Source: Daejeonella oryzae DSM 19973
Lineage (GTDB): Bacteria; Bacteroidota; Bacteroidia; Sphingobacteriales; Sphingobacteriaceae
Assembly: GCF_000422945.1 (NCBI RefSeq)
Contig: NZ_KE383964.1
Coordinates: 473,650-537,649, forward strand
DNA: 64,000 nucleotides
Direction: 5' to 3'
Shown: positions 26,539-32,567 of the stretch, piece after piece
How the letters are laid out: the number at the start of each line of letters is the position of its first letter
Numbering within the stretch: the stretch's first letter is position 1
Translations under genes and position numbers: made by a program
The notes under the pieces: generated by a model
The model's database searches: none
What the model saw: only the letters and a program-made list of their open reading frames with translations
What the model was told of the DNA's origin: nothing

Positions 26539-26554
26539 TTTAGATTTGTCTAAA
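26539..26554. promoter_or_regulatory. Predicted MntR operator of the TonB receptor operon
   Basis: TTTAGATTTGTCTAAA is an inverted repeat with 6-base arms (TTTAGA and TCTAAA), 5 bases upstream of a TATTTTTG -7 box. It differs at a single central base from the palindrome before mntR at 31992-32007. The shared site predicts a common regulator, most simply the DtxR/MntR-type repressor encoded nearby. The sequence match is seen; the regulator is inferred. Confidence 0.65.
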
Positions 26555-26558
26555 ATTA

Positions 26559-26566
26559 TATTTTTG
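26559..26566 (+). promoter_or_regulatory. Promoter -7 box of the TonB receptor operon
   Basis: TATTTTTG is an exact match to TAnnTTTG, 15 bases before the ATG at 26582. The operator at 26539-26554 lies in the spacer just upstream, so bound repressor would block polymerase. Confidence 0.55.
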
Positions 26567-26581
26567 CAAATCTAATAATAT

Positions 26582-28861
26582 ATGAAGCAAACTTCCTTTA
26601 TTTTAATATTCCTGTTTATAAGTTTAGTAGCTTTTTCTCAAGACTCTCAGATTTCCGGACAGGTTACCGCTTCGGGTAAAGGACTTGCGTTTGCAAGTGT
26701 AAGTGTTCTAAAAACTACTGAAGGAGCTACCACAGATAGTTTGGGAATCTTTAACCTAAATGGATTGATGAAGGGAAATTATATTTTGAAGGCTTCGGCA
26801 ATAGGTTATATTTCTGTTAGCAAACCGATTAGTTTAACTGACAGCCAAACTGTTGTACTTGACTTTAATCTGATGCCGGATAAGAGTTCTTTGGATGAGG
26901 TTGTCATCACCGGGACTATGAAGGAAGTTAACCGGTTGGAAAGTCCTGTTCCGGTAGAAGTTTACAGTCCCGCATTTTTTAGAAAAAATCCCACGCCGTC
27001 AGTATTTGATGCTTTGCAAAATGTCAACGGAGTACGGCCGCAGTTAAACTGTAATGTTTGCAATACGGGAGATATTCATATCAACGGATTAGAAGGACCT
27101 TACACTATGATCTTAATTGATGGCATGCCTATCGTTGGAGGTTTATCATCTGTTTACGGGTTGTCCGGAATACCAAATGCATTAATTGAACGCGTTGAAA
27201 TTGTCAAAGGTCCGGCATCATCACTCTACGGATCTGAAGCGGTAGGCGGGCTCATAAATATCATCACCAGGAAACCTCAAAATGCTCCAATATTATCAGC
27301 TGATATATTTACTACATCCTGGCAGGAAGTGAATACCGATATAGGTTTTAAATTGAATGCAGGTAAAAAAGCCCTAGTGCTAACCGGAATAAATTATTTT
27401 AAATATGGCAACCGCATCGATAACAATGATGATAATTTTACCGATGTAACACTTCAGGATCGGATATCGATCTTCCAGAAATGGAATTTTGAAAGGAAGG
27501 AGAACCGGCTGTTTAGTGTTGCGGCACGTTATAATTACGAGGACAGGTGGGGTGGAGACGTAACCTGGAATAAGTCATTTAGGGGAGGTGATGAACGTTA
27601 CGGAGAAAGTATTTACACCAAAAGGTGGGAGTTGTTTGGTAATTACCAGCTTCCTGTAAAAGAAAAAATGATGCTGGCTTTTTCATTTAATGACCATGAC
27701 CAGAATTCTGTTTACGGCACCACTTCATTTCTTGCCCGTCAGAAAATTGCATTTTCACAGTTAAGCTGGGATAAAAAAATAAAGAAACACGATCTGCTGG
27801 CAGGTGCTGCTTTGCGTTACACATATTATGATGATAATACAACTGCTACAGCTGTTGGAAACGGAATAATTAATTCAGCTCAGAAAGTATGGCTGCCGGG
27901 TATTTTTATACAAGACGAAATAGCTCTGGCCACAAAGCATAAAATCCTGATGGGACTTCGTTATGATTATAACTCAGTTCATGGTAGTATTTTAACTCCA
28001 AGATTTGCCTATAAATGGATAATAAACGAAAAAGGCATTATCCGATTAAATGCCGGAACCGGATTTAGAGTGGTTAGTTTGTTTACTGAGGAGCATGCTG
28101 CTTTAACGGGAGCCCGGGATGTGATGGTTACTGAAGAATTAAAGCCCGAAAAAAGTTATAATGCCAATCTTAATTTCCTGAAAAAAATATATTTCGGTAA
28201 CGGCAATTTTATAGGGTTTGATGCTTCGGCATGGTACACTCGTTTTAATAACCAAATTATCCCGGATTATGAGTCGGATGTAACTAAAATAATTTACAGC
28301 AACCTGGATGGCTTTGCCGTTTCACGTGGGATTAGTGCCAATGTAGATTTTAATCTGATTAATGGACTTAAGATTCTTGCAGGCGGTACTCTGATGGATG
28401 TTTTTTCAAAAAATGAAATTAAAAGCCGACCAGTTTTAACAGAGAAATGGAGTGGAACATGGGCAATTTCTTATAAAATTCCTAAAATAAATATAGGGTT
28501 GGATTATACGGGAAATATTTATGGCCCCATGCGTTTGCCAAAACTAAGTTCAAGCGATCCGAGAAGTGAATCTTCGCCAGTTTGGAGTATTCAAAATATT
28601 CAATTGACTTTTTCGGGCGATAAACGCTATGAAATTTATGGCGGAATTAAAAACCTGTTGAACTGGACACCTGGTAAAAAAGATCCGTTTCTAATTGCCA
28701 GAAGCAGAGACCCTTTTGATAAAAATGTACAGTACGATACAGACGGAAAAGTGATTGCAACAGCCGATAATCCGTATGCATTAACATTTGATCCGAGTTT
28801 TGTATATGCACCAAATCAGGGGATGCGGGGATTTTTAGGAGTTAGGGTAAATTTCAGATAA
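26582..28861 (+). CDS. TonB-dependent outer-membrane receptor, predicted metal (manganese) uptake
   Basis: The 759-residue protein has a signal peptide (about 1-20), a carboxypeptidase-like regulatory domain (about 22-105), a TonB plug domain (ILIDGMPIVGG, IERVEIVKGPASSLYGSEAVG) and a long beta-barrel ending GFLGVRVNFR. The plug has an uncommon CxxC pair, C157 and C160, in NCNVCNTGD, which could bind metal or form a disulfide. General annotation would be a TonB receptor of unknown substrate. The context is more telling: an operator shared with mntR, a periplasmic thioredoxin-like gene 7 bases downstream, and convergent mntH-mntR. Together these suggest uptake of manganese or a related metal complex. 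Confidence 0.85.
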   Translation: MKQTSFILIFLFISLVAFSQDSQISGQVTASGKGLAFASVSVLKTTEGATTDSLGIFNLNGLMKGNYILKASAIGYISVSKPISLTDSQTVVLDFNLMPDKSSLDEVVITGTMKEVNRLESPVPVEVYSPAFFRKNPTPSVFDALQNVNGVRPQLNCNVCNTGDIHINGLEGPYTMILIDGMPIVGGLSSVYGLSGIPNALIERVEIVKGPASSLYGSEAVGGLINIITRKPQNAPILSADIFTTSWQEVNTDIGFKLNAGKKALVLTGINYFKYGNRIDNNDDNFTDVTLQDRISIFQKWNFERKENRLFSVAARYNYEDRWGGDVTWNKSFRGGDERYGESIYTKRWELFGNYQLPVKEKMMLAFSFNDHDQNSVYGTTSFLARQKIAFSQLSWDKKIKKHDLLAGAALRYTYYDDNTTATAVGNGIINSAQKVWLPGIFIQDEIALATKHKILMGLRYDYNSVHGSILTPRFAYKWIINEKGIIRLNAGTGFRVVSLFTEEHAALTGARDVMVTEELKPEKSYNANLNFLKKIYFGNGNFIGFDASAWYTRFNNQIIPDYESDVTKIIYSNLDGFAVSRGISANVDFNLINGLKILAGGTLMDVFSKNEIKSRPVLTEKWSGTWAISYKIPKINIGLDYTGNIYGPMRLPKLSSSDPRSESSPVWSIQNIQLTFSGDKRYEIYGGIKNLLNWTPGKKDPFLIARSRDPFDKNVQYDTDGKVIATADNPYALTFDPSFVYAPNQGMRGFLGVRVNFR

Positions 28862-28868
28862 AAGAATT

Positions 28869-29339
28869 ATGATTGTTTCTCGGCTGATAATCTTATTAGT
28901 TTCTATTTTCACATTCAGTTTTTCTGCCAAATGCCAAATTGTAGAATTTCATGAAATTGAACAATTGCAAAAGCTGGAGAAAAAACCGGTTATGGTTTTA
29001 ATTGGTACCAGCTGGTGCAACTATTGTCAGAGTATGAAACATCATCTGCTAAGAGATGATATTTCTTCTGATCTACTTAATAAATTTTATGTGATTTTTC
29101 TTGATGCCGAGCAAAAACAACCAATACGCTATGGCGGAAAAGTTTTTAAGTTTAAGCCTAACGGACAAAATACTGGAGTTCATGAACTGGCTCAGGAATT
29201 AGGCACCGTTAATAATCAATTATCGTATCCCACAATTTGCTTCCTAAACCAGCAAAATGAAATTATTTTCCAGCACGCCGGTTATCTAAGTCCAAAAGCT
29301 TTAAGCAAACTTTTTGAAACGATTTCTAAGCTGAATTAA
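28869..29339 (+). CDS. Periplasmic thioredoxin-like protein
   Basis: This 156-residue protein has an N-terminal signal peptide (about 1-22) and a thioredoxin fold with active-site-like SWCNYC at C50 and C53, followed by YPTICFLNQQNEIIFQHAGY, which holds the cis-proline equivalent (SYPT). This resembles thioredoxin-like DsbD-gamma or SoxW-type proteins acting in the periplasm. It starts 7 bases after the TonB receptor stop, so the two form an operon under the predicted MntR operator. A role in keeping the receptor's plug cysteines reduced, or in metal release, is plausible but only inferred. Confidence 0.78.
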   Translation: MIVSRLIILLVSIFTFSFSAKCQIVEFHEIEQLQKLEKKPVMVLIGTSWCNYCQSMKHHLLRDDISSDLLNKFYVIFLDAEQKQPIRYGGKVFKFKPNGQNTGVHELAQELGTVNNQLSYPTICFLNQQNEIIFQHAGYLSPKALSKLFETISKLN

Positions 29340-29372
29340 CAATACTTTCCTCTGCTGAACTAAAACAGTTTG

Positions 29373-29403
29373 GTTATTAAGAAATTCTTCATTTCTTAAT
29401 AAC
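29373..29403. terminator. Bidirectional hairpin between the thioredoxin-like gene and mntH
   Basis: A 13-base perfect inverted repeat (GTTATTAAGAAAT and ATTTCTTAATAAC) with a TCTTC loop lies between the convergent units. It is AU-rich and lacks a strong T-tract on either side, so it may be a terminator or an mRNA-end stabiliser. Confidence 0.5.
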
Positions 29404-29416
29404 AGAATTTCTATGG

Positions 29417-31303
29417 CTATTTTATAATCAGTATTGGGATGTTTACATGGTGTCGAACAGTGTTTACGGTTGTTCCAAAAATCAGGTCACTTAATCCTTT
29501 GTGGCCGTGAGCTCCCATCACTAATAATTGCACATCCTGATCTTTTACCAGATTATATATTGCTTTTGAAGCGGTGCCGTAGCCAATAGAAACCTCGGCT
29601 TTATAACCCATGTTTTCCAGGTTTAATTTGTATTTCTGAAGATTGGCCATATCACTTTGTGTTTCCAGATCCAGGACCTCTTCTCCATGAAAACGTGCTC
29701 CTGCAGTTTCTACTACATGAATTAAATAATAGGTCGCATTTTTACCTCCCTGAATCAGCGCATGACGTATTGTATTACGATCTTTCGATGAAAAATCAAC
29801 GGGAATGCCGATACGCTGATAGTGTATATTTTCTACGTTTCCAATTTCCAAAGCTCCGCCATGCGGAACAATTGAAATAATGCGTTCCGTTTTTTTGAGA
29901 AAGGGAACAATAAAAACATATAATAAGAGAAAAGTAACCAAGAGAAGCAATGGAAAAATAATTAAATAAATCCACCAGGTATTTCCCTCAGCTTCATTAA
30001 TCCAGCCTGAAATTTCCTGCCAAACCAATTTAACATTCAGACCAACGATTATAAAAGCACTAATCCACGCTAAAATTTTTACCCATGTTTTGATGGTGTA
30101 ATCTTTCATTTTTTTTCTGTCAGAATTAAAATGAATTAAGGGAATTATAGCAAATCCCAGCTGTAAGCTTAAAACCACCTGGCTTAAAACCAAAAGTTGT
30201 CCTAAAGCTCCTTCACCAAAATATAGAATTGTAAAAAATGCAGGCGTTATCGCTAATAATCTGGTAATTAACCTTCTGATCCAGGGTTGTATTCTCAAAT
30301 TTAAGTGTCCTTCCATCACAATCTGACCTGCCAATGTTCCGGTAATAGTGGAGCTTTGCCCCGCTGCTATTAATGCAATTGCAAAAAGAGTAGGAGCAAC
30401 AGAACCAAATATGTTTTCCAGGAGTTTATAAGCATCCTGAATCTCTGCGACTTCAAACATGCCATTTTTAAAAAAGGCGGTTGCAGCAAGTATTAAAATG
30501 GCAGCATTTACAAAGAATGCAAGGTTTAAGGCAATAGAAGTATCTATTAAATTATATTTCAGGGCATCTTTTATCCCTTTGGGGCTGCGTTCAATTTTCC
30601 TGGTTTGAACCAGAGATGAATGCAAATATAAATTGTGGGGCATTACCGTAGCTCCTATAATACCAATTGCGATATACAGCGCATTACCAGATAAAATAGA
30701 AGGCTTAAATCCGGAAAGCACCTCGCCGATCATAGGCTGAACTATAAACATTTCGGTCAGGAAGGAGATACCCACAATAAAAACCATGGATACTATAAAT
30801 ACCTCCATCATCCGCATACCCTTATTCATCAGGAATAAGAGTAAAAAAGTGTCTAACACAGTAATTGAAATTCCCCAGATTAATGGAAGTCCGAATAAAA
30901 GGTTAAGACCAATGGCCATTCCAATGATCTCTGCAAGATCGCAGGCTATAATGGCTATTTGAGCCAGGAGATATAACGGATAATTGACAAATTTTGGATA
31001 TGCTTTTCTTGATGCCTGTGCCAAATCCAGTCCCTGTACAATTCCCAAACGGGCACTTAAAGACTGCAATAAAAGGGCAATCAGGTTAGACATTAATAAA
31101 ACCCAAATCAAGCTGTAGCCAAACTGGCTTCCGCCGGCAATATCTGTTGCCCAATTTCCGGGGTCCATATAGCCAACGCTTACCAGATAGGCAGGCCCTA
31201 TAAAAGCAAAAACTTTTCTCCATCCGGTTTTACCAGCAGTATTCACTGTGCCGTGCACTTCGCTTAGCGACTCGCTTTGACTGATTTCAGGTTTATTATT
31301 CAT
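29417..31303 (-). CDS. mntH: Nramp-family manganese transporter fused to a UspA domain
   Basis: The first 470 or so residues are an Nramp proton-coupled divalent metal importer of the inner membrane: the metal-binding motif DPGNW at 47-51 in the first helix and MPHNLYLHSS in the sixth. After the last helix, the C-terminal 130 residues form a universal stress protein (UspA) domain with an intact ATP-binding motif GxxG-x9-G(S/T) (GAHG at 597-600, GTT at 610-612). Total length is 628 residues, against about 410-450 for plain MntH. The start overlaps the mntR stop by four bases (ATGA), so they share a transcript. The fusion suggests that nucleotide binding gates transport, an inference. Confidence 0.9.
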   Translation of the reverse strand: MNNKPEISQSESLSEVHGTVNTAGKTGWRKVFAFIGPAYLVSVGYMDPGNWATDIAGGSQFGYSLIWVLLMSNLIALLLQSLSARLGIVQGLDLAQASRKAYPKFVNYPLYLLAQIAIIACDLAEIIGMAIGLNLLFGLPLIWGISITVLDTFLLLFLMNKGMRMMEVFIVSMVFIVGISFLTEMFIVQPMIGEVLSGFKPSILSGNALYIAIGIIGATVMPHNLYLHSSLVQTRKIERSPKGIKDALKYNLIDTSIALNLAFFVNAAILILAATAFFKNGMFEVAEIQDAYKLLENIFGSVAPTLFAIALIAAGQSSTITGTLAGQIVMEGHLNLRIQPWIRRLITRLLAITPAFFTILYFGEGALGQLLVLSQVVLSLQLGFAIIPLIHFNSDRKKMKDYTIKTWVKILAWISAFIIVGLNVKLVWQEISGWINEAEGNTWWIYLIIFPLLLLVTFLLLYVFIVPFLKKTERIISIVPHGGALEIGNVENIHYQRIGIPVDFSSKDRNTIRHALIQGGKNATYYLIHVVETAGARFHGEEVLDLETQSDMANLQKYKLNLENMGYKAEVSIGYGTASKAIYNLVKDQDVQLLVMGAHGHKGLSDLIFGTTVNTVRHHVNIPILIIK

Positions 31304-31956
31304 ATAACCGCTAATAGATTTTTTGCCACTTCACGGCTGATGCTAATAGTTTTATCATTATTAATTTCCAGAGTGATGCTTCCGTCAAACTCCATGACAT
31401 CAATAATTTTAATTAAGGTTCCTAAAGTTAAACCGCTTTTTTCAAGGTATTGAAGGAAAATAGCTGAGTGCTCACTTACACCCGAAATTTTTCCCTGTTC
31501 GCCGGGTTTCATTTTATTAAGGTTGACAAAGGGTTTTTGAAGAATCTTTCCGTTGCTGTCGGGAATAGGATCTCCATGAGGATCAGATTTAGGGTAGCCC
31601 AGGAACTTGTCTAATCGTTCAATAAGTTCCGGAGAATTAATATGTTCAAGTTCTTCTGCAATATCATGCACTTCATCCCATTTAAAATCCAGCTTTTCTA
31701 CCAGGAAAACCTCCCAAAGACGATGCTTGCGAATAATTTCTGTAGCGGTTTGCTTTCCAGATTCAGTTAGTGTAGCTCCCTGATATTTTATATAATTAAT
31801 TAACTTCTTTTCTGCCAGCTTTTTAAGCATATCGGTTACCGAAGCGGCCCGGGTGTTCACTACCTCGGCAATTCCATTGGTAGTTACTACAGATCCATCT
31901 TCCTTACTTAGATGAAAAATAGTTTTAAGATAATTTTCTTCAGTAAAAGAATGCAT
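31300..31956 (-). CDS. mntR: DtxR/MntR family metal-dependent repressor
   Basis: The 218-residue protein has an N-terminal winged helix (about 1-60), a dimerisation domain, and a C-terminal SH3/FeoA-like domain (from about 150). By comparison with known homologues, the primary metal site has N8, E101, E104 and H105. MntR of Bacillus has D8, E99, E102 and H103, whereas DtxR uses Met and Cys, so the acidic/amide set favours manganese over iron. The ancillary-site ligands H78, E82 and H97 are kept. It overlaps mntH and lies behind a palindrome matching the one before the TonB receptor, consistent with autoregulation. The start at 31956 places the operator 36-51 bases upstream. Confidence 0.85.
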   Translation of the reverse strand: MHSFTEENYLKTIFHLSKEDGSVVTTNGIAEVVNTRAASVTDMLKKLAEKKLINYIKYQGATLTESGKQTATEIIRKHRLWEVFLVEKLDFKWDEVHDIAEELEHINSPELIERLDKFLGYPKSDPHGDPIPDSNGKILQKPFVNLNKMKPGEQGKISGVSEHSAIFLQYLEKSGLTLGTLIKIIDVMEFDGSITLEINNDKTISISREVAKNLLAVI

Positions 31957-31975
31957 GCATGAATATATTATTCAG

Positions 31976-31983
31976 CAAACCTA
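31976..31983 (-). promoter_or_regulatory. Promoter -7 box of mntR-mntH
   Basis: Minus-strand TAGGTTTG matches TAnnTTTG, about 20 bases before the mntR start. The predicted operator at 31992-32007 covers the region where the -33 element should be. Confidence 0.55.
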
Positions 31984-31991
31984 ATAATATA

Positions 31992-32007
31992 TTTAGATAT
32001 GTCTAAA
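31992..32007. promoter_or_regulatory. Predicted MntR operator upstream of mntR-mntH
   Basis: TTTAGATATGTCTAAA is an inverted repeat with TTTAGA and TCTAAA arms, almost identical to the site before the TonB receptor (26539-26554). Both sites are also preceded by an AATAATAT-type sequence. Its location over the -33 region fits repression by the adjacent gene product. Confidence 0.68.
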
Positions 32008-32096: not shown

Positions 32097-32567
32097 ATGG
32101 CATTTGAATTAGACAAAATAGATTTTCGCATCCTGAAAATTCTTCAGGAAAATGGTCGAATTACCAATCTGCAGCTTTCTTCTGAAGTTGGTTTATCACC
32201 TGCTCCAACATTAGAACGAGTGAGGAAATTAGAGAATGCAGGCTTCATTAAAAGTTACCATGCTCTTGTAGATGAAGATCTGCTGGGATTAGGAATTAAA
32301 ACTTTTATTCAGGTACAGCTGGACTTTCATAAAAATAATACCATACAGGTTTTTCTTGAGGAAGTTAAAGCAATCAAAGAAATTACCGAATGTCATCATG
32401 TTACCGGTCAGTGTGATTTTCTGCTTAAAGTGTATGTGAAAGACATTAAGGCTTATGAGCGATTGATTATGGACAAAATCAGTAAAATCGGGGTGGTAAA
32501 AACCTTTCAAACTATGATGATTATGTCTACCAACAAAAAGGAGCCGGCTATTCCTCTGGAATACTAA
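32097..32567 (+). CDS. Lrp/AsnC family transcriptional regulator
   Basis: The 156-residue protein has an N-terminal helix-turn-helix (LDKIDFRILKILQENGRITN, then LSSEVGLSPAPTLERVRKLE) and a C-terminal RAM/ligand-binding domain (VTGQCDFLLKVYVKDIKAYE), the standard two-domain Lrp/AsnC design. Such proteins respond to amino acids and form octameric or larger rings. The effector here is unknown. It is monocistronic, divergent from mntR and convergent with ung, and its stop overlaps the ung stop. Confidence 0.92.
   Translation: MAFELDKIDFRILKILQENGRITNLQLSSEVGLSPAPTLERVRKLENAGFIKSYHALVDEDLLGLGIKTFIQVQLDFHKNNTIQVFLEEVKAIKEITECHHVTGQCDFLLKVYVKDIKAYERLIMDKISKIGVVKTFQTMMIMSTNKKEPAIPLEY

Follow-up and report, generated by a model that had tools for sequence, protein, structure and literature searches.

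The window analysed here (the whole stretch of 64,000 nucleotides from Daejeonella oryzae DSM 19973) contains, on contig C3 of a 3.45-Mb genome, a locus in which a TonB-dependent receptor and a thioredoxin-fold protein are predicted to be controlled by the same MntR repressor as mntH. The receptor gene (26582..28861, + strand), recognized from its open reading frame (ORF) and a domain search, encodes 759 residues with a CarboxypepD_reg-like domain, a plug and a barrel (Pfam matches to Plug at 1.1e-21 and to TonB_dep_Rec_b-barrel at 7.8e-26). It is followed after 7 bp, on the same strand, by a gene for a 156-residue thioredoxin-fold protein (28869..29339; matches to Thioredoxin_2 and Thioredoxin_7). 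Convergent to this pair, on the - strand and overlapping by 4 bp, are the genes of an Nramp protein, MntH, with a fused C-terminal UspA domain (29417..31303, 628 residues) and of MntR (31300..31956, 218 residues), a DtxR-type repressor with a C-terminal FeoA domain assigned from a domain search and solved relatives. An Lrp-type gene divergent from mntR starts at 32097.

Both operons are preceded by an intergenic palindrome of 16 bases, each a predicted MntR operator: operator 1, TTTAGATTTGTCTAAA, lies at 26539..26554 in the receptor promoter, 28 bp ahead of the start codon, and operator 2, TTTAGATATGTCTAAA, at 31992..32007 in the mntR-mntH promoter, 36 bp ahead. The two agree at 15 of 16 bases, so that the single-base difference and the coordinates reported in a first-pass annotation of this DNA are confirmed. 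That annotation also placed the palindromes in the spacer or -33 region of promoters with the TAnnTTTG consensus, which has -33 and -7 elements. Pattern matches bear this out, with a -7 type TAnnTTTG box at 26559..26566 (+ strand) for the receptor operon and TAGGTTTG at 31976..31983 (- strand) for mntR-mntH; each palindrome is expected to span the region between the two elements or to overlap them. A second TAnnTTTG match lies inside operator 1 itself, at 26541.

A search of the source genome for exact matches to TTTAGATWTGTCTAAA found only operators 1 and 2, and with first-order Markov statistics of the window exact TTTAGATNTGTCTAAA is expected 0.03 times per genome, against the two found. 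The loose form TTAGAn4TCTAA occurs at 11 sites, where 7.9 (Markov) or 9 (reversed pattern) are expected; the loose palindrome alone is thus not special and its genome count proves nothing. Six of the 11 sites fall within ORFs, one (L228) is 438 bp ahead of the nearest following start, two are the operators and two others lie near gene starts. Of the last two, TTTAGAAATTTCTAAA (L233, C2:677244) is 61 bp ahead of a deoxynucleoside kinase gene and overlaps the end of the upstream gene, and ATTAGAAATATCTAAA (L227, C1:908622) stands immediately before the second in-frame ATG of a gene for a DUF5916/CBM9 protein (Pfam names). Possibly these are extra MntR targets, or they are chance occurrences; because of them, the exclusivity of the operator to two operons is incomplete. 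Taken alone, the genome suggests, but does not prove, a regulon made up of the receptor operon and the mntR-mntH operon.

Comparison with relatives carries more of the argument. A family scan at E 1e-60 matched 27 of 61 genomes, comprising the window, 24 full or near-full orthologs (at least 49% identity), a fragment (G032) and a 28% paralog (G024). Across the phylum, 395 Bacteroidota genomes were sampled and 86 have a receptor family match (E 1e-90); these fall into two groups, A (at least 49% identity) and B (about 37-42%). The loci read were the 24 of the family, 20 of group A and 20 of group B, the last two hand-picked for spread among the 86 rows, and a further set of the best 80 of 570 loci (the best-80 set), which is biased to close relatives and is mostly Flavobacteriaceae; among the matches listed in that scan the top row is Daejeonella lutea, at 72% identity. 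Two genomes occur in two sets each (L054 = L147, L131 = L185). The box was scored as TTAGn6CTAA within -150..+20 of the start, with two best-80 loci too short for the test (n=78), and the remaining ORFs of each stretch, mntR and mntH included, served as controls. It is present at 21/24 family, 17/20 group A, 14/20 group B and 74/78 best-80 receptors, with control frequencies of 16/198, 3/155, 5/159 and 23/732, respectively; pooled, 74/78 best-80 receptors and 52/64 others carry it, compared with 47 of 1,244 controls. The stricter TTAGAn4TCTAA with one mismatch gives 72/78 receptors versus 8/691 controls in the best-80 set when mntR, mntH, ZIP and ABC genes are excluded from the controls. The first-pass annotation had raised the possibility that the palindrome is common at unrelated genes; the control counts speak against this, and the two loose sites near other starts in the source genome leave part of the doubt standing. 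A group B dialect of the operator, TTAG[CT]CnnG[GA]CTAA, is found in 13/20 loci, and many group B receptors (L107-L120) combine this dialect with a more distant MntR close by.

The first and last bases of the box vary, being either T..A or mostly of the G..C type, and they follow residue 39 of MntR, which should lie in the recognition helix. With Ser39 a T..A box occurs in 78/81 rows (the exceptions are L066, L107 and L114), and with Thr39 in 0/28, G or C standing outside in 27 and another base in one; these rows are kin by descent and count two genomes twice, so that a Fisher value computed from them is not a probability of chance. The MntR used for residue 39 was the one encoded in the receptor stretch or elsewhere in its genome. 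Nine rows lacked a site and were excluded, and T..A took precedence where several sites were present, which favours agreement for the Ser rows (e.g. L119). The box type also agrees with residue 39 in 12/12 genomes in which mntR is unlinked to the receptor. Because the outer base tracks this residue even without linkage, the receptor is tied to MntR, and its earlier assignment to a predicted MntR regulon is supported by this code together with the retention of the box at orthologs.

In 39 loci neither mntR nor an MntH, ZIP or ABC gene was seen in the stretch examined. The receptor box is nevertheless kept in 29/38 of these (by set 12/15, 7/9, 6/10 and 4/4; one more locus was too short). Genome-wide searches of the 15 such family genomes gave an MntR match in 14 (E 1e-15) and an MntH match in ten (E 1e-60). 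The receptor box is present in 12 of the 15, and in 8/12 a box also precedes mntR or mntH, being absent before both in the other 4/12. The three genomes that lack the receptor box, G053, G057 and G003, all gave no MntH match, and G053 gave no MntR match either, at the same thresholds.

The genes beside the receptor point to metal import, although not always by the same inner-membrane protein. Around the best-80 receptors (7 kb on the upstream side, 5 kb on the downstream side), mntR occurs at 74 loci, the thioredoxin gene at 38, MntH at 28 (tblastn; 27 by clustering), a ZIP protein at 27 and a ZnuA/MntC-like ABC substrate-binding protein at seven, with any inner-membrane importer at 61/80. By hand count, 13 of the 86 receptor genomes have no Nramp match; among seven of them viewed in context, a ZIP or ABC protein adjoins the receptor in L129, L133 and L132 (two ZIP, one ABC), and no importer was found beside it in L140, L115, L124 and L125. 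The ZIP protein scanned is ZupT-like, under cut-off. A Fur-like cluster (one member scanned) lies near the receptor at 18/80 best-80 loci and a CobW look-alike, identified by eye, at 8/80. In six Flavobacterium loci (L168, L173, L176, L211, L212 and L217) the interval between mntH and the receptor holds genes for a Fur-like protein, a small membrane protein, a CobW-like protein and a TrxB-like oxidoreductase (the last three by eye), possibly forming a zinc-sparing block. Other neighbours recognized by eye are FeoB-like genes adjoining a second DtxR-type gene close to the receptor locus (L182, L184 and L225) and, at L058, a DUF4198-like protein after the receptor-thioredoxin pair with a HupE/UreJ-like membrane protein farther on.

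The best-scoring solved relatives of the MntR protein are 5zr4, ScaR, SloR and 8pvt, with iron-named entries included; ScaR and SloR we take to be manganese sensors. In an alignment of 94 rows (the window and 93 cluster members, some of them second DtxR-type copies), His78, Glu101, Glu104 and His105 are mostly kept (80 to 86 rows). Position 8 is Asn in 65/94 and Asp in 14/94, and position 11 is Lys in 78/94; the window has Asn8 and Lys11, where the metal ligands of Bacillus subtilis MntR are presumably Asp8 and Glu11. The protein is read as manganese-responsive because it shares an operon with MntH, which is not proof. MntH itself scores 580 bits against the curated PRK00701 model (cut-off 430). 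Many of the best Nramp matches across the phylum are open frames of about 620-650 residues, and judging from these lengths the MntH-UspA fusion may be common there.

The most constant feature of the receptor is a cysteine pair in the plug, Cys157-Asn-Val-Cys160 (codons at 27050..27061, + strand). Both cysteines are invariant in the two ortholog alignments: they align as Cys in 65/65 sequences (64 orthologs read and the window, with the fragment L048 left out), and a plug C-x-x-C is present in 80/80 best-80 receptors. The motif is CNVC in the window and CNVC, CNIC, CGVC, CAVC, CSVC or CQVC in relatives. No such pair is found at the aligned place in 17/17 other proteins of the source genome that match the receptor (E 0.001; L252 may not be a receptor), nor in two 28% paralogs that were kept in the alignment of the 65 sequences. 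At two loci, L078 (G004:C34) and L077, a 28% paralog lacking the plug CxxC is followed by a CxxC protein of about 200 residues, and at L078 a second MntR-type gene adjoins the paralog, with a perfect box, TTTAGATACGTCTAAA. Profile-based comparison with CirA and FepA puts the receptor's cysteine pair in the plug stretch just ahead of the conserved 'I.I.G' strand, presumably in the substrate-facing plug loop. Glu503 and His505 are likewise invariant in both receptor alignments and align to the CirA region that we take to lie between barrel strands. The barrel of the AlphaFold model is usable; the plug residues 125-230 have pLDDT < 50 and thus give no basis for describing the geometry of a metal site. 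Distant receptor relatives sought among plasmids came to 23 records at 23-40% identity; in the two contexts read, those of Paracoccus and Haliscomenobacter, neither mntR nor mntH nor a thioredoxin gene is listed.

The thioredoxin-fold protein has an N-terminal signal-like stretch, judged by eye, and a Cys50-Asn-Tyr-Cys53 motif (codons at 29016..29027, + strand). WCxxC is present in 38/38 homologs of the best-80 set, mostly as CKYC (15) or CQFC (10). A search at E 0.001 of 14 receptor genomes selected for having no adjacent copy, in which four adjacent-copy controls were recovered, found no homolog at all in seven; the other seven comprise one genome with a 49% homolog elsewhere, four with 26-30% homologs elsewhere and two with only short weak matches in larger frames. 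Since half of these 14 genomes have no match, the protein is regarded as an accessory. Dependence of the CxxC motif on a neighbouring thioredoxin was considered and rejected, the motif being kept in genomes without a detectable homolog.

The best overall explanation, and one that we regard as likely from these comparisons of sequence, is a TonB-driven manganese importer repressed by MntR. The DNA switch that the receptor, here and in many relatives, shares with mntR and the importer genes makes it a strong candidate for the outer-membrane manganese door, and manganese is the likely cargo, as inferred from the regulator and the neighbours. At plentiful manganese, Mn2+-bound MntR would occupy both palindromes and repress the receptor-thioredoxin and mntR-mntH operons, and both would open when manganese is scarce. 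The receptor would then move Mn2+, free or complexed, across the outer membrane and MntH would take it across the inner one, with a ZIP or MntC-like ABC importer beside mntR presumably acting in place of MntH in relatives. The probable site of the metal or its ligand lies between the Cys157/Cys160 plug loop and conserved acid and His residues of the barrel (Glu503, His505 and others), and the thioredoxin-fold accessory probably keeps the two plug cysteines reduced, or in their correct form, during biogenesis; the plug-cysteine metal site and the thioredoxin role are both hypothetical. A more daring version, which we hold to be rather doubtful, makes this a redox-gated family of manganese (or thiol-sensitive metal) receptors across Bacteroidota, with an obligatory plug cysteine pair in the metal site whose redox state is set by the thioredoxin partner where present, opening for manganese in metal-starved or oxidatively stressed cells and delivering the ion to the MntH, ZIP or ABC importer of the lineage.

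Several observations weigh against a manganese importer under MntR control. The link of the receptor to an inner-membrane importer, suggested in the first-pass annotation for MntH, holds for most best-80 loci, where ZIP and ABC proteins share the importer role, and for few loci in the less biased sets (8/25 with the window counted, 5/20 and 0/20); in those sets mntR itself lies close to the receptor at no more than 10/25, 10/20 and 10/20 loci. Nramp proteins are found in 73/86 genomes with the receptor and in 196/309 without it (hand count), and a genome-level association was rejected as weak and confounded by taxonomy. No box was seen at 16/142 receptors tested, and G052 and G039 have a receptor box yet no MntH match at E 1e-60. 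The two loose palindromes near other gene starts have no known manganese link. The proteins scanned score below the NCBIfam cut-offs for named functions, and Zn or Fe can be substrates of ZIP and ZnuA-type proteins. The Asn8/Lys11 pair bears on metal specificity, and the missing thioredoxin homologs in 7/14 genomes bear on the accessory.

The residues at positions 8 and 11, together with the DtxR-family scaffold and its FeoA domain, would suit a sensor of iron or of both metals, the receptor then importing ferrous iron, an iron complex or haem and the Nramp, ZIP or ABC proteins taking up Fe, which Nramp and ZIP are presumed able to carry. We judge this improbable: MntR has Glu101, Glu104, His105 and His78 and neither Met nor Cys at the positions where DtxR has them, its best solved relatives include the presumed manganese sensors ScaR and SloR (though also iron-named entries), and MntH exceeds the cut-off of the manganese-type PRK00701 model. 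Still less credible is import of zinc, copper or another soft metal, with MntR control reflecting metal cross-talk and the CxxC a soft-metal site. Two cysteines would indeed be unusual manganese ligands, the ZIP protein scanned resembles ZupT below cut-off, and Fur-like and CobW-like genes stand near some best-80 loci; the operator code nevertheless links the receptor to MntR, and MntH or MntC/EfaA-like ABC genes replace ZIP at other loci.

A further possibility is a branch of the manganese-importer explanation, with which its odds overlap: the receptor might take an organic manganese carrier, such as a metallophore or a foreign siderophore, and not the ion. Most TonB receptors take complexes, and the CarboxypepD_reg-like N-terminal domain is usual in Bacteroidota receptors. 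However, no synthesis or carrier-processing genes were seen by eye among the 40 largest neighbour clusters, and ZnuD shows that a TonB receptor can take up a free divalent ion (PMC4557270); we consider a carrier unlikely, though less so than iron or a soft metal.

For a case built from sequence, the regulon of the preferred manganese-importer explanation is well supported, and the cysteine-pair mechanism is a hypothesis. Mn2+ is seldom bound by thiolate ligands, and the invariant plug cysteines therefore raise a chemical question. Few bacteria are documented to import manganese by a TonB-driven route, and porins are usually thought sufficient for outer-membrane manganese entry; a review describes porin entry as sufficient at high Mn (PMC8602904). 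If the explanation is correct, the receptor family found in 86/395 genomes would be a dedicated outer-membrane manganese importer, the operator code would allow direct prediction of MntR regulons in Bacteroidota, and the finding would address how these bacteria bring manganese across the outer membrane.

ScaR, SloR and DtxR-IdeR share sequence similarity with this MntR over the DNA- and metal-binding domains, the residues here being Asn8 and Lys11, and presumably also a TTAG...CTAA-type likeness of their operators; unlike them, MntR here is predicted to regulate an outer-membrane receptor. The literature searched, with most subscription papers outside its coverage, yielded no report of a receptor under MntR control in Bacteroidota, and the accessible parts of PMC9478572, PMC11960050 and PMC12574912 contain no description of such a system; the Bacteroidota receptor family, the operator code and the exchangeable inner-membrane partners were likewise not found there. 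The system is not categorically new, however, as it has precedents in MnoT and in a Stenotrophomonas module described in 2026. Both of these, and the plug Cys-x-x-Cys, were missed by the first-pass annotation.

MnoT of Burkholderia thailandensis is a TonB-dependent outer-membrane transporter reported to be Mn2+-specific and induced at low Mn2+; its partner is TseM, a manganese-binding protein secreted by a type VI secretion system (T6SS), and the accessible text of the review mentions neither CxxC nor thioredoxin for it (PMC8602904). ZnuD of Neisseria meningitidis takes free divalent zinc, held by residues of a plug apical loop and barrel loops (Asp-99, His-100, Glu-340 and His-499), and the word 'cysteine' is absent from the main text of the source (PMC4557270).

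The closest parallel is in S. maltophilia, where an MntR-controlled receptor (plug CQNC) and a thioredoxin-fold protein (CAPC), encoded by orf2357-orf2358, lie beside mntR-mntH (PMC13217887). Expression of this pair is reported to be raised in an mntR mutant, its function there being undetermined, and synteny of the module extends to Lysobacterales, Sphingomonadales and Opitutales; no word beginning 'bacteroid' occurs in the main text. The S. maltophilia box has 25 bp and the MntP exporter is a third target, in contrast to the 16-bp box here, and the present system differs further in the FeoA domain of its MntR, the MntH-UspA fusion, the ZIP and ABC alternatives in relatives and the optional thioredoxin. 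CQNC is found in 0/65 aligned and 0/80 best-80 receptors, the window receptor having CNVC, and CAPC in 0/38 thioredoxin homologs, the window protein having CNYC; as neither exact motif occurs and the comparison is one of motifs and descriptions, the present system is not assigned to the CQNC family. The two systems have in common a TonB receptor with a plug Cys-x-x-Cys, a thioredoxin-fold gene directly downstream, adjacent mntR and mntH, and an MntR box, predicted in the present case, at both the receptor and the mntH promoters.

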